The notes beneath the pieces were generated by a model that saw nothing but the letters and a program-made list of their open reading frames with translations, ran no database searches and was not told the DNA's origin. From Geomonas paludis (GTDB taxonomy: Bacteria; Desulfobacterota; Desulfuromonadia; Geobacterales; Geobacteraceae): DNA of 64,000 bases. Positions 9,336-44,934 of this stretch are shown here, piece by piece. Position numbers and translations under genes: made by a program. The stretch's first letter is position 1. Each line of letters starts with the position of its first letter. The stretch is from contig NZ_BLXY01000009.1 of NCBI RefSeq assembly GCF_014193585.1, positions 1-64,000 of the forward strand, in the 5' to 3' direction.

Positions 9336-9836
9336 CTACTTGCCGATCTTGAACGAGAGCAGGAAACGCTCCTCGCCGCAGACAAAGGGCATGACCAGCG
9401 ATTCGGCACTGGAGATGCTCTCCAGGGCGTAGTCGTTGCCGTAGATCACGGTCGGTATGGAGAGGTTGATGTCGGCGCCCTTGGGGGAGAAGATGTGCTT
9501 CACGTCCCCCCCCACCATGTTGGCGATCTCGCCCATGGCATCGTTGACATCCTCGTCGACCTCGGTGACGTCCATCCCCAGCATATTGGAAGTGACCTGC
9601 AGGGCCAGCTTCTTGGGGCAGTGGATGGCCAGGATGCCGGAGTGGCTGCCGGCCAGGCCCACCATGCTGGTCACCGTCTCGTGAAAGGTCAAGACCGGTT
9701 CAGCCAGGGGAGGCTCGTCGACCACCTCCAGCATCACCATGGTGGAGAAGACCCCCTTGGTTATATCCGCAATCGTTTTCCTGACTTCGTCCTCGGTGGT
9801 GTTGGCCTCGCTGAGTACCGCTGCATCAAGCCCCAT
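9336..9836 (-). CDS. CheX-like chemotaxis phosphatase-family protein
   Basis: 166 aa, cytoplasmic. The segment MGEIANMVGGDVK (Glu103 and Asn106) matches the ExxN catalytic motif by which CheX/CheC/FliY proteins dephosphorylate CheY-P. The alpha/beta fold and length (about 155-170 aa) fit CheX. GAGGATGG precedes the ATG. It stands alone with its own terminator and no chemotaxis genes beside it, so its response regulator target is encoded elsewhere. Confidence 0.85.
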   Translation of the reverse strand: MGLDAAVLSEANTTEDEVRKTIADITKGVFSTMVMLEVVDEPPLAEPVLTFHETVTSMVGLAGSHSGILAIHCPKKLALQVTSNMLGMDVTEVDEDVNDAMGEIANMVGGDVKHIFSPKGADINLSIPTVIYGNDYALESISSAESLVMPFVCGEERFLLSFKIGK

Positions 9837-9957
9837 GTTCCATCCTCCTCACCGCATCGATTAGGTAGCGTAGTCCAGCACCTGACAAAAGAAGACCAGG
9901 TAGATAAAGATGCGTATAAATGCATTCGGCAGGAAAGCGCCCGTCTTTAGCGAATTT

Positions 9958-11163
9958 TTAACAGACCGGGAAATCACCGCGGGCCAGGGCTTGGCAGAAC
10001 TCCGTGATGCCCGCTAGTTGGCGCTGCATGACCTCCCGCACCTCCCCCTCGACCTCGGTGACGCTGCGTCCGGGTTCCATGACCAGTTGGGCACTGGCCA
10101 TCTGCGGGCGGTCCACCGGCTCGCCGATCCGGCTCAGCAGCATGATGTAGGCCCCTTGCACGCCGGCCACCGACTTGCAGATCTCACGGGCCATCCGGTG
10201 CGACAGCACGTTGTAGATCTTGCCGACGTGGCTCATGGGATTTTTACCCGCGGCGGCCTCGGTGCCGATGGCGCGCGCAATGGGGATCAGGCCGTTGACG
10301 CGGTTGCCCCGCCCGACCTGCCCGGAATCGGCGTCCTCGGCGGAGGTGCCCAAGAGCGAGAGGTAGACGCCGGCCAGGCCGCGCCCGGCCTGGTCCAGCG
10401 TGTTGTAGTGCACCCGGACCCGCCCGAAGCCGCGGCACCCTTGCTCCAGGAACTCCCGCATCGCAGTGTCGACGGCCTGCTTTCTTTCGAAGTACTCCCG
10501 CTCAGACCGGATCCGCTCGGCAAGAAGCGGCATGGCGACGGTGAGATCGAGTTCGTCCCCGTTTCGGAGCCCCATCACCTTGACATCCTCGCCGGTCTCG
10601 GGAAAGAGCGTCTTGAACCGCGCGCTGTTCAATTCACGCTCCAGGGTGAGCACGGCGTGCTCGGTCGGGCTCAGGGGGTAGTAGCCGACGGCGGCCGAGG
10701 TATCGTTGGCTCCCCTGACCTCTCCGGGACGCGCGAAGATGTCGGTCAACTCCAGCGAACCCGGGGCCAGCTTCAGGCGGTAGCGGACATGGCGCTCGGG
10801 GTCAACGTGCCGCAGGTTGCGGGAGATCCAGGTCTTCGCGGCTGCGACCGCGATGTCGTGCACCGGGATCTCCCTGCCTGCCATGCTGAAGGTGGCCCGG
10901 TCGCCGATGGTCAGTTCCATCGGCTCGATCACCTCGCCGCCGCCGAAGCGCATTTGCACGCGGCCGGCGGCCAGGAGCCCCTTGTCGATGTTGTGATGCA
11001 GGATGGTGCCGAACTCGGAGAGATAAGCCTGGGACAGCGCGACCGAGATGGAGTCCATGATGCAGTCGCAGATCTGGTCGGGGTGGCCGGTCCCCTTGCG
11101 CTCCACCATCTCGACCCGCTGCTGCGTCACCTGCGTGCCGTGAAATTCTTCCACCACCAGCAT
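9958..11163 (-). CDS. Archaeal-type S-adenosylmethionine synthetase (MAT)
   Basis: 401 aa. It makes S-adenosylmethionine from methionine and ATP. The sequence belongs to the archaeal-type family rather than bacterial MetK: VEMVERKGTGHPDQICDCI near residue 17, HHNIDKGLLAAG, the acidic GRVQMRFGGGEVIEP and the C-terminal NPMSHVGKIYNVLSH are typical; length (about 400 aa) fits. The ATG at 11163 is preceded by GGAGGAAAGGGG; the longer open frame upstream has no signals. It is monocistronic, with repeat family A upstream. Some bacteria carry this enzyme alone or besides MetK; which applies here cannot be told. Confidence 0.93.
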   Translation of the reverse strand: MLVVEEFHGTQVTQQRVEMVERKGTGHPDQICDCIMDSISVALSQAYLSEFGTILHHNIDKGLLAAGRVQMRFGGGEVIEPMELTIGDRATFSMAGREIPVHDIAVAAAKTWISRNLRHVDPERHVRYRLKLAPGSLELTDIFARPGEVRGANDTSAAVGYYPLSPTEHAVLTLERELNSARFKTLFPETGEDVKVMGLRNGDELDLTVAMPLLAERIRSEREYFERKQAVDTAMREFLEQGCRGFGRVRVHYNTLDQAGRGLAGVYLSLLGTSAEDADSGQVGRGNRVNGLIPIARAIGTEAAAGKNPMSHVGKIYNVLSHRMAREICKSVAGVQGAYIMLLSRIGEPVDRPQMASAQLVMEPGRSVTEVEGEVREVMQRQLAGITEFCQALARGDFPVC

Positions 11164-11280
11164 GGTCTTCCCCTTTCCTCCCGGCGGGCACGGGTTGCGG
11201 CCGCGCGGGCAACCCGAAAATAGTAGCCGAAAAAGGTGAGGGCGCAATTGGAGGCGGAAAGGCGGTGTTCACATCACGAT

Positions 11281-11394
11281 CCCCTCTCCCCCCGGGAGAG
11301 GGGTAGGGGTGAGGGCGCAGCAACTGCCACCGGTCTCACTATGTGGCAGCGCCCTCACCCGCCCTGCGGGCACCCTCTCCCGGAGGGCGAGGGG
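11281..11394. repeat. Dispersed repeat family A, copy 2 (inverted pair)
   Basis: Arms CCCTCTCCCCCCGGGAGAGG with GGTGAGGGC (11282-11316) and GCCCTCACCCGCCCTGCGGG with CACCCTCTCCCGGAGG (11351-11392), separated by about 35 bases. Located between MAT and fxsA genes. Confidence 0.85.
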
Positions 11395-11451
11395 GAGAAC
11401 TTGGCAAAGGTTCTGTTTTCAGCGGGATTGGAGCGGGTGTTGGGGAAAGGG

Positions 11452-11847
11452 TCAGAAGTGGCGGCGCATCACGAAGCCGCCGCGGGAGATTTTGTTCTGC
11501 AGCCACAGGCCGAGCCATAGCTTGATCAAGCGCCTGGTGGCCGGGACGAGGAAGAAGATGCCGAGAAAATCGGTGAAGAAGCCGGGCGTGGTAAGGAGGA
11601 CTCCCCCGATGAAGATGAGGGCGCCGTCGAGAAGCTGCGCGGCGGGGAGCCGCCCCTGGGAGAGCTCGTCGCGGATCTGCGTAAGCACCCTACCCCCCTG
11701 GTGCCGGATCAGCCAAGCGCCGGTCAGGCTCATGAGGAGCAGGATGGCGACCGTGGCCACGCCGCCGATCACCTGGCCCACCTTGATGATCAGGTAGATC
11801 TCGACCACCGGCACGATGAGGAGAATGAGGAACAGTCTGAAGAACAT
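11452..11847 (-). CDS. fxsA: FxsA-family membrane protein
   Basis: 131 aa. The N-terminal RLFLILLIVPVVEIYLII segment, a second hydrophobic stretch (VIGGVATVAILLLMSLTGAW), then the RHQGGRVLTQIRDELSQG and LLTTPGFFTDFLG motifs are those of FxsA, the E. coli inner-membrane protein whose overproduction relieves exclusion of phage T7 by the F plasmid. Its normal role is not established. It follows the NtrX-like regulator after 9 bases and is the last gene of that operon. Confidence 0.88.
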   Translation of the reverse strand: MFFRLFLILLIVPVVEIYLIIKVGQVIGGVATVAILLLMSLTGAWLIRHQGGRVLTQIRDELSQGRLPAAQLLDGALIFIGGVLLTTPGFFTDFLGIFFLVPATRRLIKLWLGLWLQNKISRGGFVMRRHF

Positions 11848-11856
11848 GGCGCCCCG

Positions 11857-13230
11857 CTACTTCTTCATGTCGATGCCGTAGCTCTTGATCTTACGGTGCA
11901 GGTTGCTCCGCTCCAGTTCGATCGCCTCGGCGGTCTTGGAGACGTTCCAGTCGTTCTCCTCGAGCTTTTGCATGATGAACTCGCGCTCGAACTCCTCGCG
12001 CGCCTCCCTGAGGCTGGAGAGCTCCAGCACGCTGTCCAGCTTCCCCCCCGCCTCTTCCCGGCCGCCGGGCGAGACGAAGTCGTCGGGGAGATGGTTCATG
12101 GTGATGGTGCCGCCGGGGGTCATGATCACCAGGCGCTCCACGATGTTCTTCAACTCGCGCACGTTGCCGGGCCAGTCGTAGCGCTTGAGCGACTCCATCG
12201 CCTCCGGGACGATCCGCTTGCGCTCGCGTCCCTCCTGGTCGCAGAAGGCGTCCAGGAAGTAGCCGGCCAGAAGCGGGATGTCCTCGCGGCGGTCGCGCAA
12301 CGGCGGGACCTTGAAGGGGACCACGTTGAGCCGGTAGTAGAGGTCCTCGCGGAAGGTGCCGTTCTTGATCTCCTCCTCGAGGAGCTTGTTGGTGGCGGCG
12401 ACGATGCGCACGTCCACCTCCAGGGTCCGGGTTCCCCCCACCCTTTCGAACTTCTTCTCCTGCAGGATGCGCAGCACCTTGGCCTGGGTCTTGAGCGACA
12501 TGTCGCCGATCTCGTCCAGGAACAGGGTGCCGCCGTCGGCCAGGTCGAACTTCCCCTTCTTCTGCGCCACGGCGCCGGTGAAGGCCCCCCGCTCGTGGCC
12601 GAACAGTTCGCTCTCGATCAGCTCCTCCGGGATGGCGGCGCAGTTGATCTCGATGAAGGGCTTGTCGCGGCGCTGGCTGTGGTAGTGGACCGAGCGGGCC
12701 ACCAGTTCCTTGCCGGTGCCGTTCTCGCCGGTGATGAGGACCGAGGCGTTGGTGGGGGCGACCAGCCGGATCTGCTCGGCCAGTTGCTGCATGGCGGCCG
12801 ATTGGCCGATCATCTCGTGCCCCTGCTGCACCTGCCCCCTGAGGGCCGCGTTCTCCTCCTTCAGGCGGTTCATGGAGAGCGCGTTCTCCACGGTCACCAC
12901 CACCTTCTCCAGGGAAAGCGGCTTCTCGATGAAGTCGTAGGCGCCCAGCTTGGTGGACTTGACCGCGGTCTCGATGGTGCCGTGCCCGCTCATCATGATC
13001 ACGTTGAGGGTCGGGTGCTGCTCCTTCAGGCGCTTGAGCGTCTCGATGCCGTCCATCCGGGGCATCCAGATGTCCAGGAGCACGAGTCCGGGAAGCTCCT
13101 TCTGGCACAGGGCGAGCGCCTCGGTCCCGTCCGCCGCGCACACGGTGCGGTACCCCTCGTCCTCGAGGATGCCGGCCAGGGAGGAGCGGATCCCCTCCTC
13201 GTCATCGACTATCAGAATGGTCTCGGTCAT
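11857..13230 (-). CDS. Sigma54-dependent response regulator, NtrX/NtrC class
   Basis: 457 aa. Receiver (1-120) with Asp53 in LLDIWMPRMD and Lys103 in FIEKP; AAA+ domain (about 140-375) with Walker A GENGTGKE (168-175), the sigma54-contacting GAFTGA loop (215-220) and Walker B GGTLFLDEIG; Fis-type DNA-binding tail ending ERSNLHRKIKSYGI. It activates sigma54 promoters by ATP hydrolysis when phosphorylated. The tail and receiver resemble NtrX. No cognate kinase is adjacent; it sits between an aminotransferase and fxsA with gaps of 11 and 9 bases. Confidence 0.93.
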   Translation of the reverse strand: MTETILIVDDEEGIRSSLAGILEDEGYRTVCAADGTEALALCQKELPGLVLLDIWMPRMDGIETLKRLKEQHPTLNVIMMSGHGTIETAVKSTKLGAYDFIEKPLSLEKVVVTVENALSMNRLKEENAALRGQVQQGHEMIGQSAAMQQLAEQIRLVAPTNASVLITGENGTGKELVARSVHYHSQRRDKPFIEINCAAIPEELIESELFGHERGAFTGAVAQKKGKFDLADGGTLFLDEIGDMSLKTQAKVLRILQEKKFERVGGTRTLEVDVRIVAATNKLLEEEIKNGTFREDLYYRLNVVPFKVPPLRDRREDIPLLAGYFLDAFCDQEGRERKRIVPEAMESLKRYDWPGNVRELKNIVERLVIMTPGGTITMNHLPDDFVSPGGREEAGGKLDSVLELSSLREAREEFEREFIMQKLEENDWNVSKTAEAIELERSNLHRKIKSYGIDMKK

Positions 13231-13241
13231 GGTGGTCCCTT

Positions 13242-14435
13242 CTATCCCGGGAGGCCCGCCTCTTTGGCCAGCTCGCGCCAGGCGGGGATGCTGCGCTCGA
13301 TCATCCCCTGGTCAACGCAGTAGGCGATGCGGAAGAAGCCGGGGGCTCCGAAACCGGCGCCGGGCACCAGCAGGATGCGGTGCTTCTGCGCCATCTTGAC
13401 GAACTCGACGTCGTCGGCCAGCGGCGACTTCGGGAACAGGTAGAAGGCGCCGTCGGGCTTGACCATGGAGAAGCCCATGCCGGTGAGAGCGTTGTAGAGC
13501 AGGTCGCGCTTGACCCGGTAGGCCTCGATGTCTACCGAGACGTGCTGCAGCCCGGCCACCAGGCGCTGCATCAGGGCCGGCGCGTTCACAAAGCCGAGCA
13601 CGCGGTTGGAGAACACCGCCCCTTCCATGAACTGGTCCACGTTGTTCATGTTCGGGCTGGCGGCCAGGTAGCCGATGCGCTCGCCGGGGAGCGCCAGGTC
13701 TTTCGAGTGCGAGGTGACGATGACCGAGTTCTGGACGTAGCGGAAGATGTTGGGAACGCTCTTGCCGTCGTAGGCGATGCGCGCGTAGGGCTCGTCGGAG
13801 ATGACCAGGATCTGCCTCCCCAGTTCCGCTTCCTTGGCAGCCACCATCTCGCCCAAGGCCTTGAGGCTCTCGGCGGGGTAGATGACGCCGGTCGGGTTGT
13901 TCGGCGAGCAGATGATGATGGCGCGGGTCCTGTCGGTCACCGCCGCGGCGATGGCCGGGATGTCGAGCTGGAAGGTCTCGCGGTCGGTCCAGACTTCGAC
14001 CGGCACGCCGCCGTGGTTGTCGATGTAGAAGCGGTACTCCACGAAGAACGGGGTCAAGAGGATCACCTCGTCGCCGGGGTTGAGGATGGTCTTCAGCACC
14101 ACGTTGAGGGCGCCGCCGGCGCCGCAGGTCATCACCACCTGGCTCCCCTGCACCGGGAGATCGGAGGCGGCGGCGAGCATGCGCGCCACGGCGTTTCTCG
14201 TCTCCGGGTAGCCGGCGTTGTTCATGTAGCGGTGCATGCCCGGGACCGGCTGCTTGGCGAGCTTCAGGAACTCGTCCTGGAACGCCGCGGGGGGCTCGAC
14301 GTCGGGGTTCCCCAGGGTGAAGTCGTAGACCTTGTCGGCGCCGTACTCCTTCCTGAGCTTCTCACCCTCCTCGAACATCTTCCTGATCCACGACGATTTC
14401 GCAATAAATCCGGCGATCTTATCAGCGACGGGCAT
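13242..14435 (-). CDS. Class I/II PLP-dependent aminotransferase
   Basis: 397 aa. Fold-type I aminotransferase with CSPNNPTGVIYP (about 176-187), DEPYARIAY (about 214-222) and the PLP lysine Lys245 in SHSKDLALPGERIGY. Such enzymes move amino groups from aspartate, alanine or aromatic amino acids to 2-oxoglutarate; the substrate cannot be set from sequence. GGAGGGGATGC precedes the ATG. First gene of the operon with the NtrX-like regulator and fxsA, and divergent from the sulfhydrylase-family gene at 14616. Confidence 0.9.
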   Translation of the reverse strand: MPVADKIAGFIAKSSWIRKMFEEGEKLRKEYGADKVYDFTLGNPDVEPPAAFQDEFLKLAKQPVPGMHRYMNNAGYPETRNAVARMLAAASDLPVQGSQVVMTCGAGGALNVVLKTILNPGDEVILLTPFFVEYRFYIDNHGGVPVEVWTDRETFQLDIPAIAAAVTDRTRAIIICSPNNPTGVIYPAESLKALGEMVAAKEAELGRQILVISDEPYARIAYDGKSVPNIFRYVQNSVIVTSHSKDLALPGERIGYLAASPNMNNVDQFMEGAVFSNRVLGFVNAPALMQRLVAGLQHVSVDIEAYRVKRDLLYNALTGMGFSMVKPDGAFYLFPKSPLADDVEFVKMAQKHRILLVPGAGFGAPGFFRIAYCVDQGMIERSIPAWRELAKEAGLPG

Positions 14436-37969: not shown

Positions 37970-39934
37970 TCAGTGCACCCCCGCCACGTCCCGCAGCCGT
38001 GCTATGGTGGCTATCAGGTCGGCCCGGGGAGAGAGGGCATACGCGGTTTCAAATTCTGCCAGCGCCTCGGCATGCCTGCGCTCCCGAAGGTGAAGCAGCG
38101 CCAGGAAAAGGTGCGCGTACTGGGCGGATGGTTCGAGGGCGATGGCTTCCTGGTACTTACGGCGCGCGCCCGCCAGATCCCCCTGTGCCTCCAGGACCTG
38201 CCCCATGAACGCGTGGGGACGGCCGTCGTTGGGTTCCAGGCGGGCGGCGGTGGTAAGCGCGTCGGCCGCCTCCCGGTACCTTTTCTGAACCAGGAGCGCT
38301 CCCCCCAGGAAGGTGTGGGCAGCCCCCGACTGTGGGTCGAGCTTGATGGCGGTCTGGAACTCGCGCACCACCTCACCAAGCACCTCGTTTTGCCTGGCGT
38401 CCATGGGCTGCAGCATGACATTGACGTCGTCGGTGTGCCAGGGGGGCAGGGTATCGGCCAGGGCCACTCCCAGCGAGAAGTGGGGGCGGTGCTTGGCCGG
38501 ACTCTTGCTCACCGCATCGCGCCAGAGGGAAACCGGCGTCTCCCACACCGTGTTCCTCGCGTAGGCGGCCGCCGCACTTGCCGTGACCAACAGGGCCAGG
38601 ATGGCGACGGCTGGTCGCGAGGTCGCCACCGGCGCACCGGCACGCCGCGGCAAAAGGAAGAAAACGCCGGTGACCGCGGCCACCAAGAAACCGACCGACG
38701 GGAGGTAGGCCCGGTGCTCGAAAATCAGGTCGTCGATCGGCACCACGCTCGATTCGACGCTCAGGGTGATGAAGAACCACCAGATACCGAAACCGACCAG
38801 GGCGAGCGGGGCGCACCGGGGATCGCGGCGCGACCGGAACAAAAGCCACCCCCCCAACCCTGCCAGAGCGAGGAGAAGGGCCAGCGGGAGCAGGACCGCC
38901 GGGGCGAGAAACACCTTCTGCAGCGGGTAGTCGTAGTCGAAGTTCTGTCCCACCGGCAGCAGCAGAAGCCTCAGATAGGTGGCGACGACGCCGAACTGGG
39001 TCATCAGGTACTCCCAGGAGGAGACCTGCTTGAAGTTGACCAGGTTGACCGCGCCCGCAACCTTACCCCCCTGGGCCGTGGCGGCCATCGAGGAGAGCTG
39101 CATCAGCTTGACCGGGATGATGGCCATGGTCAGCGCGAAGGGAACCAGCCTGAGCAGGCGGGCGGCGGTGAACGCGCCGCGGAAAAAGACCCATTCGTAG
39201 AGCAGTATCAGCACCGGCAGGGTGAAGGCGTTCTCCTTGGTCTTCATGGCCAGCACGCTGGCGAGCAGGGATGCCAGGTACAAACCGTTGCGGGATGCCT
39301 TGCCCGCCGCGAGCCGCCCGGCGACATAAAGGACCAGCGCACCGATGTAAAACAGGGCGACCAGAGGAACGAAGCGCTGGATCACGTAGGTGACCGCCTG
39401 GGTCTGCAGCGGGTGACAGACGAACAGCAGCGTGCCGGCAAGGGGGAGATAGTAGAAACGCTCCGCAGGCTGGTCGGCCTCCTCACCCCCTTCCATCCGG
39501 AGCAGCGGCGTCCGCAGGGTGAGCCATACGAGCAGGTACACGAGCAGAGCGTTGACCAGGTGCAACAACAGGTTGACCACGTGATACCCCCCGACATTGA
39601 GGCCGTGCAGGGCGTAGTTGAGGGCAAAGGTGAAATAGGCGACCGGGCGCAGCATGAAATTGTTCTTGAGGTCGGGGTTGACCGGGAGCGCTAACACCCG
39701 TTGCGGGTCCGTGAAGAAGCCGAAATCCTTGATCAGCGGGTTGCCGGCCAGAAACGGCTGGTCGTCGAACACGAAAGGGGCCCAGATGATGTTGGAGTAG
39801 ACGGCGAAACCTACCGCCAGAACCAGCAGGATATGAACCAGCGGGTCGCGCCGCAGGTTCAGCTCCTCTGCCTGCTCCGGAGCCGCCGGACCGTGGGGCG
39901 CCTCCCCTATTATTGTTTTTTTTCGCTTCTTCAT
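37970..39934 (-). CDS. Multi-span membrane protein with C-terminal TPR repeats (TMTC/PMT-like glycosyltransferase candidate)
   Basis: 654 aa. About ten to twelve membrane segments occupy residues 30-450; the first lumenal loop has APFVFDDQPFLAGNPLIKD, the acidic loop typical of GT-C and TMTC-type O-glycosyltransferases. Residues about 500-640 hold TPR units (FLGGALLVQKRYREAADALT, PHAFMGQVLEAQGDLAGARR, YAHLFLALLHLRERRHAEAL). GT-C enzymes transfer sugar from polyprenyl-phosphate to an acceptor outside the membrane. Last gene of the sugar operon; its ATG overlaps the methyltransferase stop by four bases. Transferase activity is inferred from topology and context. Confidence 0.82.
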   Translation of the reverse strand: MKKRKKTIIGEAPHGPAAPEQAEELNLRRDPLVHILLVLAVGFAVYSNIIWAPFVFDDQPFLAGNPLIKDFGFFTDPQRVLALPVNPDLKNNFMLRPVAYFTFALNYALHGLNVGGYHVVNLLLHLVNALLVYLLVWLTLRTPLLRMEGGEEADQPAERFYYLPLAGTLLFVCHPLQTQAVTYVIQRFVPLVALFYIGALVLYVAGRLAAGKASRNGLYLASLLASVLAMKTKENAFTLPVLILLYEWVFFRGAFTAARLLRLVPFALTMAIIPVKLMQLSSMAATAQGGKVAGAVNLVNFKQVSSWEYLMTQFGVVATYLRLLLLPVGQNFDYDYPLQKVFLAPAVLLPLALLLALAGLGGWLLFRSRRDPRCAPLALVGFGIWWFFITLSVESSVVPIDDLIFEHRAYLPSVGFLVAAVTGVFFLLPRRAGAPVATSRPAVAILALLVTASAAAAYARNTVWETPVSLWRDAVSKSPAKHRPHFSLGVALADTLPPWHTDDVNVMLQPMDARQNEVLGEVVREFQTAIKLDPQSGAAHTFLGGALLVQKRYREAADALTTAARLEPNDGRPHAFMGQVLEAQGDLAGARRKYQEAIALEPSAQYAHLFLALLHLRERRHAEALAEFETAYALSPRADLIATIARLRDVAGVH

Positions 39935-40692
39935 AGTGTCTCCTGTACCGCCTCACCCTTTCGGGCGATAGCAAAAAGCGATGAACCGATGGGGAGCTTC
40001 ACCCTGCGCAGCACGGCGTTCTCCGCGCGCATGACCCGCACGAGGAGCGCGTTCACGCAAGGCGAAGGAAGCGCCACGTCCGACTCGCCCCCCTTGCGGC
40101 GCCCCCACCACCCCCGCAGCAGCCGGTACGACGCGATCAAGGGAAACAACAGGCCGACACGGAAGGTGAGGAGTTCGACGGTGAAGCCCGCGGCGGCGAG
40201 CCTCGTGCGCAGAGTCCGCTCGTCATAGCGTTCGCGGGTGTGGACCGCGACGTCGTGGGAGCTGCGCAGCCATTCCAGGGCGACCAGGTTGAGCACCAGC
40301 ATCCCCCCCGGCCGCAGCGCCGTGCAAAAAGCCTTCATGACCTCCACGTCGCTGCGCACCCCCGCGTGGTAGAGGACGTCGATGCAGGTGATCACGTCGT
40401 ACGACGCCGGCTCCAGTTCCAGGGCGTTCAGGTCGCCCAGTTGCGCCGCGACGCCGCGACGGCGGCTGTAGCGGATCGCCTCCGGCGACGCATCCACCCC
40501 CTGCGCCTGCCCCACGGCCGCCAGAAGCTGGCACAGCCTGCCGGTGCCGCAGCCGGCATCGAGGATGCGCAAAGGCCGCCCCAGGCGCTCCGCTTCCCGC
40601 GTCACGTGGGCAAGGACCAGTTCATGCAGTCCCACGTACCACCAGTGCGTATCCTCCGCCTCGAACATGACCCGGTACTCGGAAGGGTTCAT
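39931..40692 (-). CDS. Class I SAM-dependent methyltransferase
   Basis: 253 aa. Motif I ILDAGCGTGRLCQLL (about 43-57), acidic VDASPEAI, and motif II-like YDVITCIDVLYH are clear; MFEAEDTHWWYVGLHEL at the N terminus is common in methyltransferases of polysaccharide clusters. It may methylate the sugar or its amino group. It overlaps both neighbours by four bases, so it belongs to the operon. Confidence 0.88.
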   Translation of the reverse strand: MNPSEYRVMFEAEDTHWWYVGLHELVLAHVTREAERLGRPLRILDAGCGTGRLCQLLAAVGQAQGVDASPEAIRYSRRRGVAAQLGDLNALELEPASYDVITCIDVLYHAGVRSDVEVMKAFCTALRPGGMLVLNLVALEWLRSSHDVAVHTRERYDERTLRTRLAAAGFTVELLTFRVGLLFPLIASYRLLRGWWGRRKGGESDVALPSPCVNALLVRVMRAENAVLRRVKLPIGSSLFAIARKGEAVQETL

Positions 40693-41816
40693 CGCCCCCC
40701 CGAAAAGAAGCGCCGCACCGCCTCGACCACCCTTTCGGCGTGGCGCCTGGGGAGTTCCGGGTAGATGGGAAGGGAGAGGATGGTTCGGGCCAGGCGCTCG
40801 GTGACCGGCAGGTCGCCGTCCCGGTACCCCAGCGTGCGGTATCCCCGCATCAGGTGCACCGGGTGCGGGTAGTTGATCTTGGTCTCGATCCCCTCTTTGG
40901 CGAGGAACTCCATCAGCCGATCCCGGCGCCGGGTGCGCACCGTGTACAGGTAGTACTGGTGCCGACAGTCGCGGCCGACGACGGGAAGGCCCACGTCTCC
41001 CACTCCGGCCAGCCCCTCATCGTATATGCGGGCGATGTCGCGCCGCGCCGACGCGGCCGCCTCGATCCCGGGAAGCTTCAGGTTCAGGATCGCCGCCTGC
41101 ACCTCGTCCAGCCGCGAGTTGAAACCCTCCTCCTCGGCGTGGTACCCCAGCTCTATGCCGTAAAAGCGCAGCCGCCTGAGCCGCGCGGCGAGCTCCGGGT
41201 CGGAGGTGGTCACGGCGCCCGCGTCGCCGAACGCCCCCAGGATCTTGGTGGGATAGAACGAGAAGGCGCCCGCGTCACCGATACTGCCGGCCCGCTCCTC
41301 GCCGTAGGCGGCGCCACAGGCCTGGGCGCAGTCCTCGACCAGCCGCACTCCCCGGCGCCTCGCGATCTCCTGCAGCGGCGCCATGTCCACCATCTGCCCG
41401 CACAGGTGCACCGGCAGCAGGCAACGGGTGCGCGTGGTGACGGCGGCCTCGACGAGGGAGACATCCATGAGGTAGGTGTCCTCCTCGACGTCGACGAAGA
41501 CCGGGGTCGCACCGCTGGCGCGGATCGCGGCCACGGTCGGAACGGCGGTATTGGAGACGGTGATCACCTCGTCCCCCGCCCCTACTCCCAAAGCCTTCAA
41601 GGCCAGGACAATGGCATCGGTCCCGGAATTGACCCCGACGGCGAAGGCGGCCCCACTGTAGGCCGCCAGCCCCTTTTCAAACTCCGCCACCTCCTGCCCC
41701 AGCACCAGCCGGCCGGAGGAAAAGACGCGGTCCACCGCGCCCAGGTACTCCTCGCGGCGCGGCGTGTACTCTCCAAGATAGTCCCAGTAGCGGACGGTAT
41801 CATTCATGCCCGGCAT
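40689..41816 (-). CDS. DegT/DnrJ/EryC1-family sugar aminotransferase
   Basis: 375 aa. PLP enzyme with VNSGTDAIVLALKALG, VHLCGQMVDM, EDCAQACGA and PLP lysine Lys191 in FSFYPTKILGAFGDAG. Family members aminate keto-sugars bound to dTDP or UDP. The ATG at 41816 has GGAGGGGAG upstream; a GTG nine codons earlier and an ATG three codons later are alternatives. Following a 2,3-dehydratase, C-3 amination of a 2-deoxy-3-keto sugar (as by EvaB-type enzymes) is the expected reaction. Confidence 0.92.
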   Translation of the reverse strand: MPGMNDTVRYWDYLGEYTPRREEYLGAVDRVFSSGRLVLGQEVAEFEKGLAAYSGAAFAVGVNSGTDAIVLALKALGVGAGDEVITVSNTAVPTVAAIRASGATPVFVDVEEDTYLMDVSLVEAAVTTRTRCLLPVHLCGQMVDMAPLQEIARRRGVRLVEDCAQACGAAYGEERAGSIGDAGAFSFYPTKILGAFGDAGAVTTSDPELAARLRRLRFYGIELGYHAEEEGFNSRLDEVQAAILNLKLPGIEAAASARRDIARIYDEGLAGVGDVGLPVVGRDCRHQYYLYTVRTRRRDRLMEFLAKEGIETKINYPHPVHLMRGYRTLGYRDGDLPVTERLARTILSLPIYPELPRRHAERVVEAVRRFFSGGR

Positions 41817-41864
41817 CGCGTCTCCCCTCCCCCGCCATCTCACGCTCCGGCACCGGTTCGCTCT

Positions 41865-43265
41865 TCACAAAAGGCACGAGATGATGCTCCGCGCGCAGGA
41901 ATTGACCTGCTCACCCAGGTGCACCAGCACCAGCACCTGCTGCATGGTCAGCCAGCGGTAGTCGGGGGGGAGCGCCAGTTCGGTCTTCTCGGGAAGCATC
42001 AGGATGCGGTGCAGGTTGTATTCCCGGTAAAAACGCGCCCCTTCCTCGGCCTGACGGCTCTCGTGAACCAGCGGGAAGGGGCCGGGCGCGGCGAACTCCT
42101 CGAACAGGAACGGCTTTTCCAGCTTCGCGTTCCCTTCGTAGTTGCCCTGGGTGAACTGCGCCGTGGGGCCGAGCTGGACCGTGGAGCGGTTGCCTGCCTC
42201 GGCCTTGGCCTGCATCAGCAGCTCCGGCCCGTCGGGTCCCTCGCGAAGCAGCAGCCCGATGATCCCTGGGGCGGGGTTCTCGATGATCGGCTGTCCCCAT
42301 GCCCCCACCTCCCTGGTTTGCGAGGAGACCTTCAGTCCCACGATGCGGAAGAAAGAGCTGGAAACATGGGAGAAGTAGCCCTTCTCGTCCAGGCGCCATT
42401 CCCGGAGATCGTTCAACCCGATGCGCCTGGTCAGCATGTGCGTCATGGCCCGGCGGTCGTCCAGCCACTGCAGCGCGTCGCGCAGCCCCTCCCGGCCGGC
42501 TGCGGCGTCCCGTTGCCCCGTGTTCCCGGCGCCGACGAGGCAGGCCAGGATGCTGCGCGTGCAGGCGTTGACCAGGTTGTCCCGGCGGATGAGGGAGGCG
42601 ATCTGGCGCAGTGTCAGCCAGATGAACCCCTCAGGGAGCTCCACCGGCACCTCATCCCCGGCCAGGATGATCATGTTGCGGTTGGACTTGTACAGGAACC
42701 GGCCGCCATCCTCGGTCTGCAGGCGTGCAAACAGGCGCCGGGCCGGGTCCGGCTCGATGAACAGTTCGATGAAGAGGGGTTTGGCTCCGCCGTGGGCCCT
42801 GGTGTAGTTGCTGTAGGTGGCCTGGACCGTCGGGGAAAGCTGGACACCTCCCACGTTGCCCGGTTCCTCCTTGGCCTGCAGGCAGAAGTGGAGCGTGCCT
42901 TCGATGTACTTGGCCAGAATGCCCAGGATCCCCACCTCCGGCTGCTCGATGATGGGCTGGTCCCATTCCAGCTGGTGATGCCCCACCCGGTGCCGGACGT
43001 GCACCCCCATCACGCTGAAGAAGCGACCGCTATCGTGGTGGATGTTACCGGTGGCAGCTTCCCTATGCCACCCCTGCACCGCCTCCAGCGGCACCTGCAT
43101 GTTGCTGAGGGAGCACTTCTCCCGCGCCGCGGTGATCCACCGGTCGACGAAGCCGTCGCTGTGCAGTGCGAAGGCGCTGCTTCGGGAGGCGGCCACCCCT
43201 GCGGCGTGATCGTCGGGTACGCTGCCCCCTGCCGCGAGCATCGCGGCGCTCATGTTAGCGGCCAT
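41865..43265 (-). CDS. NDP-hexose 2,3-dehydratase (EvaA-like)
   Basis: 466 aa with two homologous halves. Half 1 has FFSVMGVHVRHRVGHHQLEW, DQPIIEQPEVGILGILAKYI and LQAKEEPGNVGGVQLSPTVQ; half 2 has GQPIIENPAPGIIGLLLREG and QAKAEAGNRSTVQLGPTAQF. This twin-domain layout and the QAKxExGN block are those of EvaA/TylX3-type enzymes, which remove the C-2 hydroxyl of dTDP-4-keto-6-deoxyglucose, the committing step to 2-deoxysugars. Its start overlaps the GT2 stop by 11 bases. Such enzymes are best known from actinomycete antibiotic pathways. Confidence 0.87.
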   Translation of the reverse strand: MAANMSAAMLAAGGSVPDDHAAGVAASRSSAFALHSDGFVDRWITAAREKCSLSNMQVPLEAVQGWHREAATGNIHHDSGRFFSVMGVHVRHRVGHHQLEWDQPIIEQPEVGILGILAKYIEGTLHFCLQAKEEPGNVGGVQLSPTVQATYSNYTRAHGGAKPLFIELFIEPDPARRLFARLQTEDGGRFLYKSNRNMIILAGDEVPVELPEGFIWLTLRQIASLIRRDNLVNACTRSILACLVGAGNTGQRDAAAGREGLRDALQWLDDRRAMTHMLTRRIGLNDLREWRLDEKGYFSHVSSSFFRIVGLKVSSQTREVGAWGQPIIENPAPGIIGLLLREGPDGPELLMQAKAEAGNRSTVQLGPTAQFTQGNYEGNAKLEKPFLFEEFAAPGPFPLVHESRQAEEGARFYREYNLHRILMLPEKTELALPPDYRWLTMQQVLVLVHLGEQVNSCARSIISCLL

Positions 43266-44202
43266 TGTGCTCCCTCCCCGCGGCCCAGGTTTCCCTGACG
43301 ATGAATTGCGGCTCCTGGTTCAGCTTGAGGTAGATGCGCCCCACGTACTCGCCGACGACCCCGGTGGCCAGCAACTGGACGCCGCGGAAGAACATGGTGA
43401 TGGAGTTCACCGATTCGATATCGCTTGGGTCGCTCAGCATGGGAAGCCAGCCCCGGATCAGCATGGCGCAGACGGAGTAGATTCCGGAAAGGGTCAGCAC
43501 CGCTCCCCCCACCGCCAGCAGGCGCAGCGGTATCAGCGAATAGCTAACGAACACGTTGCCCCACAAGTCGATCAGTTTCTTGAGCGTGTAACCGGACCTC
43601 CCTTCGCGGCGCGGGTCATGACGCACCTGGACGGTGCCGATGTTGCGCGTGCTGCGCAGGATGAGAGCATCGAGGTAGACGTTGGGGCTCTTGTGCGCGA
43701 CGAGTTGGTCCACCAGGAAGCGGTTCATCACCTTGAAGCTGGAAAGGTAGAGGCTGGCCGGCTTGTCGAGGGTGACGCGGGCGAGAGTGCCGTTCAGATA
43801 GCTCCCCACGTTGCGGAACCAGTGGTCGCTTTTTTCCGGATACTGACAGTAGACGACGTCGTACCCCTTGGCGATCGCGGCCAGCAGCTTGGGCACCTCC
43901 GCGGGCGGGTTCTGGAAGTCGTCATCCATGATGACGACGTAATCACCGCGGGCCTGGTTCAGCCCGGCCATCACCGCGTTGTGTTCGCCGAAATTGCGCG
44001 ACAGGGAGAGGTAGGTCACCGTCTCCGGGTACTCCTCGTGGAGCCGCCGGCAGACGACAGCGGAGCCGTCGCGGCTGTAGTCGTTCACGAGGACGATCTC
44101 GAGCCGGTATTGGTCCTTTAGTTGAGAGACCAGGGCCTTACACAGTGGGGCTATGGTCTTCTCGGCATTGTATACAGGTATGACGATGGATATGAGAGGC
44201 AT
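43255..44202 (-). CDS. Family 2 glycosyltransferase, polyprenyl-phosphate type (GtrB/ArnC-like)
   Basis: 315 aa. GT-A domain opening ISIVIPVYNAEKTI, with VNDYSRDGS, SLSRNFGEHNAVMAGL and the metal-binding DDD (93-95, VIMDDDFQNPP). Two C-terminal membrane segments (about 228-255 and 265-290) as in GtrB, ArnC and DPM1 relatives that load a sugar onto undecaprenyl phosphate. First enzyme of the overlapping operon, so it likely charges the lipid carrier with the sugar made by the genes downstream. Confidence 0.93.
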   Translation of the reverse strand: MPLISIVIPVYNAEKTIAPLCKALVSQLKDQYRLEIVLVNDYSRDGSAVVCRRLHEEYPETVTYLSLSRNFGEHNAVMAGLNQARGDYVVIMDDDFQNPPAEVPKLLAAIAKGYDVVYCQYPEKSDHWFRNVGSYLNGTLARVTLDKPASLYLSSFKVMNRFLVDQLVAHKSPNVYLDALILRSTRNIGTVQVRHDPRREGRSGYTLKKLIDLWGNVFVSYSLIPLRLLAVGGAVLTLSGIYSVCAMLIRGWLPMLSDPSDIESVNSITMFFRGVQLLATGVVGEYVGRIYLKLNQEPQFIVRETWAAGREHNGR

Positions 44203-44397
44203 GGCACTCTTCCGCGCTGGTGTCCCCAGGGGGACGTGTCAAGGCTGCCGGCCGCGCGACAAGGCACGATGGCTCCACTGCAGCTCAAGCAGGCGGGCAC
44301 GACGCACCGTGGCACAGGTATGACGCGACCCGGCCTTGTCGCGGATGCGACAGGCAAAGGTGCGGCTACACCGGCCGGTTCGAAGCAAGTCAGGGGA

Positions 44398-44730
44398 TCA
44401 GCTGGAGGGTGGGGAACGCCCGGGAAGGGTTGGCGGGTAGGGGGGGACGGTATCAGCAGCCGCGAGCCGGTTGAAAGTGACGAGGTGACCGGCTGGCAGG
44501 TTGAGGCAGTGGTGCTGGAACTCGCCGTCGATGGCGTGGACGGGGCAGGCATTGCTGCAGTCGGCTTTGGAGGCGGAGGCTTCTTTCTGGACGCACTGGT
44601 TGAGGACGGCACGCGGCTTGGGCTTAGGCCCCGGGGAACGGTCGAGGAGCGCAATCCTCATACCTGCGAAGACCAGGAAGAAGATCACGGCGAACGCCGC
44701 CGCAACTTGTACCTTTCTGCTGTTCACCAT
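44398..44730 (-). CDS. Small membrane-anchored hypothetical protein
   Basis: 110 aa. One N-terminal membrane helix (VQVAAAFAVIFFLVFAGMRI), then a basic Pro-rich stretch and four cysteines in the exported part (NQCVQKE, ADCSNACP, HHCLNL), which could form disulfides or bind a cofactor. The ATG at 44730 fits the membrane helix; the ribosome site is weak. It is 195 bases upstream of the GT2 gene on the same strand and may be part of that operon. No family recognised. Confidence 0.5.
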   Translation of the reverse strand: MVNSRKVQVAAAFAVIFFLVFAGMRIALLDRSPGPKPKPRAVLNQCVQKEASASKADCSNACPVHAIDGEFQHHCLNLPAGHLVTFNRLAAADTVPPYPPTLPGRSPPSS

Positions 44731-44934
44731 TGTTCTCGGCCCGGCTCCAGGGAAGATCACGCCGCACCCGAATTGGCTGACAGTCAGACTGCAGAACAGG
44801 TGAGGCAACGTGAAACATAGCGTGAAACTGGTCGACAAGTCAACCCATTAGACTGAACACATCCAGGAAGATAGAAACTACTGCGTTTAAACCTTGTCTG
44901 ATCAGGCATGATCTTCCGCCAAATGCGTCCACAT

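Follow-up and report, generated by a model that had tools for sequence, protein, structure and literature searches.

A predicted deoxy-amino sugar attachment operon in Geomonas paludis and the putative ribosome-arrest leader gene in front of it

Five closely packed minus-strand genes lie at positions 37970-44202 of a 64,000-nt stretch of Geomonas paludis DNA (hereafter the window, meaning the whole stretch analysed), and upstream of them is a small gene, here called SP, which together with them makes up the locus of this study. The genes encode a GT2 glycosyltransferase, an EvaA-type nucleoside diphosphate (NDP)-hexose 2,3-dehydratase, a DegT-family aminotransferase, a methyltransferase (MT) and a membrane protein of GT-C type with a tetratricopeptide repeat (TPR) domain. 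The locus raises the question of what such a set makes, where its product goes and what decides when it is expressed. The explanation favoured here, with moderate confidence, is that its genes form one operon that makes a 2-deoxy amino sugar and attaches this beyond the inner membrane, and that the leader at its head probably exerts control through ribosome arrest. Judged from the protein sequences, sugar attachment is the likely function; control by arrest at SP is plausible by analogy with known leaders.

The five open reading frames (ORFs) that an initial annotation had described as overlapping or nearly so were all found at their positions, tightly packed (Table 1). The GT2 and EvaA genes overlap by 11 bp, and the DegT/MT and MT/GT-C pairs by 4 bp each; the gap between the EvaA and DegT genes is 21 bp, or larger if DegT starts at 41816 or 41807. 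The identities proposed for the five genes were borne out by Pfam, while NCBIfam gives related models for the operon proteins, none of them above its cut-off among the matches listed. SP, which heads the operon, is a sixth gene absent from that five-gene list. The three flanking proteins scanned by Pfam are MarC, a zinc-type dehydrogenase and an ABC transporter-type (ABC-F) protein.

Conservation was counted over 27 loci, namely the window, L032-L046 and L067-L077, with the outgroup loci L078-L084 counted apart. Outside the counts stand a partial 35% match in SAR86 (L047) and a match that ends at a contig end (L086), and L085 is the same record as L039. The GT2 and EvaA genes are adjacent at all 27 loci, far beyond chance; DegT follows at all 27 and MT at 26, L033 being the exception. 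Conservation of the five genes as a set thus held for the GT2-EvaA-DegT-MT part, but not for the GT-C gene, which is swapped at 4 of the 27 loci and weak or not seen at 9. On this comparison of sequences, the GT-C gene appears to be an exchangeable part of the operon. The operon also behaves as a unit on the chromosome. Of 19 genomes of the genus, 8 have EvaA and 11 do not; the marC-like and ABC-F genes are approximately 80-280 bp apart in 7 of the latter (two of the remaining four have 1.7 kb between them, one has the genes on different contigs, and one has no marC match). In the window the same interval is 7.4 kb, SP included. The leader and the five genes fill one site, which is empty in 7 of the 11 sister genomes without EvaA. 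A B12-binding radical SAM gene accompanies the operon at 8 of the 27 loci, not in the window (identified by Pfam at L034 and by tblastn at the rest), and is possibly involved in a further sugar or lipid modification.

The sugar-making part begins with the dehydratase, which carries two PF03559 copies, as does EvaA of Amycolatopsis (4j7g, 1.7e-92); its first half aligns with both EvaA halves. Residues E134 and E185 align with the catalytic glutamates E139 and E190 of EvaA (chain numbering taken as residue numbering), the pair whose replacement abolishes EvaA activity, according to the accessible part of PMC8987622. Unlike EvaA, the window version is Gram-negative and shares its operon with membrane glycosyltransferases. 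The window protein shares 95% identity with its Geomonas anaerohicana counterpart and 85-88% with those of three more Geomonas species. The initial annotation considered such an enzyme unusual in a Geobacter-like envelope, which was an overstatement: 15 of the 48 family genomes carry PF03559, as do 9 of 394 others sampled in the phylum. At a Nitrospirae locus (L042:8837-10390), a stop splits the EvaA reading into two ORFs. A word search of the open PMC literature found EvaA-type enzymes joined with Geobacter or with envelope glycans in none of the matches listed.

Both rmlA and rmlB, which the initial annotation had thought worth seeking elsewhere in the genome, are present. RmlB is encoded on the operon's own contig (contig 9, 81096-82082, 491 bits) next to a 277-aa ORF that resembles RmlD by likeness, and RmlA on contig 3 (154243-155088, 453 bits) next to a 162-aa ORF with a PF00908 match (34 bits against a cut-off of 27). 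Since the two genes are there, dTDP-4-keto-6-deoxyglucose, the dehydratase substrate, can be made. The EvaA-type enzyme would convert it into a 3,4-diketo-2,6-dideoxy sugar, and the DegT enzyme would turn this into an amino sugar, most likely a 3-amino sugar in the window lineage because the operon has no ketoreductase. N- or O-methylation by MT would follow; GT2 would then place the methylated sugar on undecaprenyl phosphate, and after flipping the GT-C/TPR protein would transfer the lipid-linked sugar to a protein or glycan in the periplasm or on the cell surface.

The PF01041 match of the DegT protein covers nearly its full length. Its closest solved relatives are 7b0d (named glutamine--scyllo-inositol transaminase), 2oga and QdtB (3frk); 2oga is DesV, and DesV and QdtB are enzymes that aminate C3. 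The relatives of the aminotransferase thus lean, by sequence, towards C3 amination. The lysine within its SFYPTK stretch is presumably the one that binds pyridoxal phosphate. At that position 3-dehydratases have a histidine, as stated in the available text of PMC8987622. For MT, solved relatives are weak (the best at 5.5e-13, CalS10 at 3.8e-7). Matches to it of at least 49% identity occur in at least 14 of the 48 family genomes, all of them genomes with EvaA, among the matches listed; the next near-full-length matches there are at 30-37%, with shorter ones of up to 42% over the part binding S-adenosylmethionine (SAM). The fifteenth EvaA genome, that of G. propionica (G023, locus L033), has no MT gene at the locus. 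Methylation of the sugar by MT is suggested because the gene co-occurs with EvaA.

The membrane glycosyltransferases indicate where the sugar would go. GT2 was confirmed to be GtrB-like and of the lipid-phosphate type, its best solved relatives being ArnC and GtrB, with similarity over nearly the whole chain (residues 4-306 of 315 to 9hwj, and 4-307 to 5ekp). It differs from ArnC and PgfS in scoring below their NCBIfam cut-offs (175.7 of 529 bits and 155.4 of 500 bits, respectively), and by context its sugar donor would be another one. The last gene had been described as a GT-C protein with TPR repeats, and this fold is seen in the predicted structure: in a Foldseek search TPR proteins lead the best 50 matches, and GT-C relatives appear in a second look. 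The membrane part has a DD pair after the first transmembrane helix, in the first outer loop (D57-D58), in 14 of 14 sequences, and its K233-E234-N...T238 and E406-H-R408-A-Y410 resemble, and do not equal, the KE(T/Q)xxT and ERxxY motifs that accompany DD in TMTC proteins (PMC7801869). Because no DUF1736 was among its Pfam hits at E 1e-3, the protein is labelled TMTC-like rather than TMTC. The predicted GT-C fold, DD and a TPR domain behind the membrane part, along with a similar KE...T, are shared with TMTC1-4, protein O-mannosyltransferases and ArnT, whereas the DUF1736 match is missing, the spacing of ERxxY differs and the donor, by context, would not be mannose. At L040:11437-13080, L043, L044 and L072, a PMT_2-type GT-C gene between the EvaA gene and a ketoreductase gene (see below) replaces the TMTC-like gene behind MT, an apparent swap of transferases.

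These transferases also admit a different acceptor. The operon could modify a polysaccharide, such as a lipopolysaccharide O-antigen or a capsule side branch, rather than a protein, with GT2 and the GT-C protein acting as GtrB does with a Gtr- or ArnT-type transferase. This is the strongest of the alternatives and a real possibility, if the less probable one: the TPR fusion and the TMTC-like motifs suggest protein O-glycosylation, and there are no O-antigen genes among the three flanking proteins scanned.

Attachment of a sugar outside the inner membrane leaves its identity to be considered, and here the window differs from most of its relatives. At 18 of the 27 loci, not in the window, a Gfo/Idh/MocA oxidoreductase gene (45-70% identity; Pfam for L035) lies between the EvaA and DegT genes. 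The best solved relative of the L035 protein, the one tested, is a sugar 3-ketoreductase, 3rbv (KijD10; 1.3e-46). A relative of this ketoreductase at 24-33% identity adjoins EvaA in all seven outgroup loci. On an EvaA tree of 30 rows (5 of its 27 inner branches weak; L042, whose EvaA reads with a stop, left out), absence of the gene amounts to two changes, in the window clade of eight rows and in L076. Loss of the ketoreductase is the simplest reading, because the tree needs only these two changes and the outgroups have a relative. The operon's product in the window may therefore differ from that of its relatives, and the lack of the ketoreductase in this lineage makes its exact sugar uncertain. 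No remnant of the gene was seen by eye in the 260-bp spacer of L069. At L075:10473-11803, in a metagenome-assembled genome, the ketoreductase and the start of the aminotransferase are read in several frames, owing to decay or sequencing errors. In a distant relative in the phylum, a short minus-strand ORF (L078:9991-10401), presumably FdtA/WxcM-like, adjoins a run of EvaA, ketoreductase, aminotransferase and MT genes.

The ketoreductase could direct amination to C4. The ancestral product would then have been a 4-amino-2,4,6-trideoxy sugar, made by reduction of C3 followed by amination of C4 by the DegT enzyme, with the window lineage having changed its product or its reductase. The spread of the ketoreductase over the 18 loci and all outgroups, its likeness to a 3-ketoreductase and the two changes on the tree all speak for this, as does the top NCBIfam model of the DegT protein, the PseC family, a C4 aminating enzyme, the match being far below its cut-off. 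A 4-amino ancestral product is nevertheless rather doubtful, as the ketoreductase can be lost while DegT and MT are retained, which agrees with amination directly at C3 and reduction of C4 afterwards, and two of the top three solved relatives of DegT are C3 enzymes. The 2-deoxy-3-amino sugar of the initial annotation is favoured by these relatives, but put in question by the ketoreductase at the other loci and by the PseC model.

Control of the amino-sugar operon would lie with SP. Its protein has a hydrophobic segment at approximately residues 11-29, KPKPRAV at approximately 36-42 and RSPP at 105-108 (44407-44418), two residues before the end. Homologs occur on the GT2 strand at 18 of the 27 loci, their stop 102-272 nt ahead of GT2, with RSPP (11 loci), RAPP (5), RPPP (1) or RASP (1) as their motif. 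Among 14 aligned proteins the conserved features are a hydrophobic segment at the N-terminus, the motif at the C-terminus and, in most, KPKPRA[VI]. The middle is variable, yet all 14 keep a distance of 73-79 residues between segment and motif; such constant spacing is expected if the nascent chain must reach the membrane while the ribosome stands at the motif. A hydrophobic 19-mer scoring above 1.6, by hydropathy only, lies near the start of all 14 and of 68 of 71 family proteins. Against four Geomonas relatives, the ratio of nonsynonymous to synonymous substitution rates (dN/dS) is 0.32-0.47 for the whole gene, with 0.04-0.16 over the first 45 codons. In the family of 71 collected by a profile search, RAPP (46), RSPP (17), RGPP (2) and RDPP (1) place RxPP no more than 15 residues from the end in 66 proteins; the other five have RASP, with no RxPP elsewhere in their chain.

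The accessible parts of the arrest-peptide literature describe RAPP-type leaders as stalling because the RAP arginine takes hold of the peptidyl-transferase centre and the proline in the A site is unable to attack (PMC10951233). A Desulfuromonadales RAPP leader upstream of secDF stalls Escherichia coli ribosomes in vitro and in vivo (PMC10987492), and RGPP, RSPP and RDPP (PMC12992588), as well as RASP and RSPP (PMC10987492), are permissive or natural in arrest peptides; RPPP, found at one locus, is not among the arrest motifs reported in those parts. Like SecM, ApdA, ApdP and uDF_RQH_Desulfuromonadales, SP is a small upstream ORF on the same strand, with an N-terminal hydrophobic segment, a spacer of more than 30 residues and a C-terminal RxPP, whereas the window motif is RSPP rather than RAPP and the operon downstream is one of glycosyltransferases, not sec or yidC. 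With CruR (DUF2946) of Bordetella it shares the pattern of an exported small leader with RxPP near its C-terminus ahead of a non-sec operon, and the gap of 195 nt to GT2 compares with 162 bp in the available account of CruR. SP was rejected as a DUF2946/CruR protein, the window ORF having no Pfam family and the 14 sequences no conserved CxxC. Its likeness to RAPP-type arrest leaders makes a common mechanism plausible: the nascent SP chain, held by its hydrophobic segment, would stall ribosomes at the C-terminal RSPP, and the stall, or its release on a sensed state of the envelope, would set expression of the downstream genes, as with SecM, ApdP and CruR. A Bordetella RAPP leader controls its operon through Rho, as far as the text seen of PMC9426467 goes; the RNA that encodes SP is rich in C (40% C, 24% G), which by analogy would suit Rho. 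The promoter-like site lies 83 nt upstream of where SP starts, and its hexamers are identical in 7 of 8 genus loci and also in the alignment of five; it was not seen before the SP paralogs of other genes.

A profile survey found an SP family member in 33 of the 48 family genomes. Strong members (at least 74 bits) lie near GT2 in 14 of the 15 EvaA genomes, and all others score 57 bits or less. In a survey of paralogs, SP was recovered at 33 of the 40 loci given, three further rows being false matches, and subtraction of 12 GT2 loci and 4 duplicates left 17 paralog loci. There the next same-strand ORF is IclR-like in nine, a lipoprotein with GCAK in five, an efflux membrane-fusion protein in one and unclear in two (Pfam supports one IclR, two OmpA and one HlyD case); the distance from SP to that ORF is no test, because the script scanned 600 nt ahead for any long ORF. 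RAPP-ending paralogs stand 69-355 nt before IclR-like genes (Pfam: L142) at L126-L132, L138, L142-L144, L146 and L147, with SP near locus position 1500 or 9000; in L142 and L146 an acetate-permease-like gene follows. Small lipoprotein genes follow SP paralogs at L135, L137, L139, L148 and L149, with an OmpA domain by Pfam in the last two, and at L145:8979-9383 (plus strand) a RAPP paralog is ahead of an HlyD-type gene and then an efflux-pump-like gene (9659-14147). The window genome's two other paralogs precede a TPR protein (L140:6847-8757; not among the recovered SP) and a protein with a sub-threshold CHAP match (L141:8515-9261; one of the two unclear loci). The SP profile had no match on the contig holding this genome's secD, and a word search of the open PMC literature joined arrest leaders with Geobacter or with glycosyltransferases in none of the matches listed.

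SP might instead be a structural part of the system, a small membrane partner or a sugar acceptor. Its regular place on the GT2 strand at 18 loci and its absence where the site lacks the operon would suit such a role, which is nonetheless unlikely given that the same signature marks paralogs in front of IclR-like, lipoprotein and efflux genes, that 9 of the 27 GT2-EvaA loci show no SP, and that conservation is at the two chain ends. A sugar for a secreted antibiotic-like small molecule, as made with EvaA enzymes in actinomycetes, is highly improbable and was dropped, since the lipid-phosphate GT2 and the GT-C fold are membrane types and the operon has no other kind of glycosyltransferase, although the characterised 2,3-dehydratases named in the accessible part of PMC8987622 come from antibiotic producers.

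Against an amino-sugar attachment operon under arrest control stand several further points, besides the PseC model noted above. Of the five genes the GT-C gene is conserved least, and its protein matches no Pfam GT-C family at E 1e-3. The L035 ketoreductase finds no close copy in the window genome (best 29% over approximately 190 of 332 residues), and without an operon ketoreductase the finishing step at C4 is unaccounted for in the window lineage. For the leader, 9 of the 27 loci gave no SP with the search pattern used. The last 16 SP codons show no consistent constraint (dN/dS 0.36-1.08, from few sites and with one pair not computable), and the count of 66 in 71 is not independent because the profile was built from motif-bearing sequences. 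RSPP, the motif of the window and its near kin, was weaker than RAPP in the published tests as far as they are available, and in CruR the double change R139A+A140S abolished the effect, so that the A-to-S step alone is not cleared in the part of PMC9426467 consulted. One promoter-like site was found where 0.8 are expected by chance in the region. The RNA fold of the stretch between SP and GT2 is little better than shuffles (z -1.41, 21 of 200 as good), and single-sequence folds at the 18 loci have no common shape by eye.

Table 1. Positions of the features of the locus in the window, and of an accompanying gene at other loci
Feature	Position	Strand	Details
GT2, ArnC/GtrB/PgfS-like polyprenyl-phosphate glycosyltransferase	43255-44202	-	315 aa; Pfam Glycos_transf_2, 1.4e-33
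EvaA-type NDP-hexose 2,3-dehydratase	41865-43265	-	466 aa; PF03559 x2, 4e-139
DegT/DnrJ/EryC1 sugar aminotransferase	40689-41843 (start possibly 41816 or 41807)	-	DegT_DnrJ_EryC1, 2e-109
SAM methyltransferase (MT)	39931-40692	-	253 aa; Methyltransf_23, 4e-17
GT-C membrane glycosyltransferase with C-terminal TPR domain, TMTC-like	37970-39934	-	654 aa; Pfam TPR at residues ~520-640
SP, candidate arrest-peptide leader gene	44398-44730	-	110 codons + stop; six-frame reading, alignment, family of 71
Promoter-like TTGACT-18-TATGTT upstream of SP	44814-44843	-	hexamer search and Geomonas alignment
Short dyad CAGTctgACTG, between promoter-like site and SP	44781-44791	-	partly conserved in 5 Geomonas; possible operator or hairpin
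Stretch of 195 nt from SP stop to GT2 start, presumed site of regulation	44203-44397	-	spacing and RNA fold
B12-binding radical SAM gene	L034:16318-17754, L035:14300-15730, L037:16822-18255, L039:14356-15786, L042:13345-14757; also L069, L070, L071

Neither the sugar operon nor the leader is categorically new, and the leader is the more interesting part of the locus. If the favoured explanation is true, metal-reducing bacteria use in their envelope a type of enzyme so far described from antibiotic producers, coupled there to a lipid-phosphate donor and to a transferase of the GT-C/TPR kind. The OmcS and OmcE filaments of Geobacter are reported to be glycosylated, and OmcZ not, in the accessible text of PMC9473688; the locus is candidate machinery for such filament glycosylation in the relatives that carry it. 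More tentatively, Geobacteraceae may have placed paralogous RAPP/RSPP leaders before differing envelope and regulatory operons (sugar attachment, an IclR-type regulator, an OmpA-type lipoprotein and efflux), so that a nascent membrane protein would sense the envelope and decide whether the cell makes the EvaA-type amino sugar and adds it to extracellular proteins, perhaps with glycosylated cytochrome filaments among them. The leader family would then extend ribosome-arrest control to a glycosylation operon.

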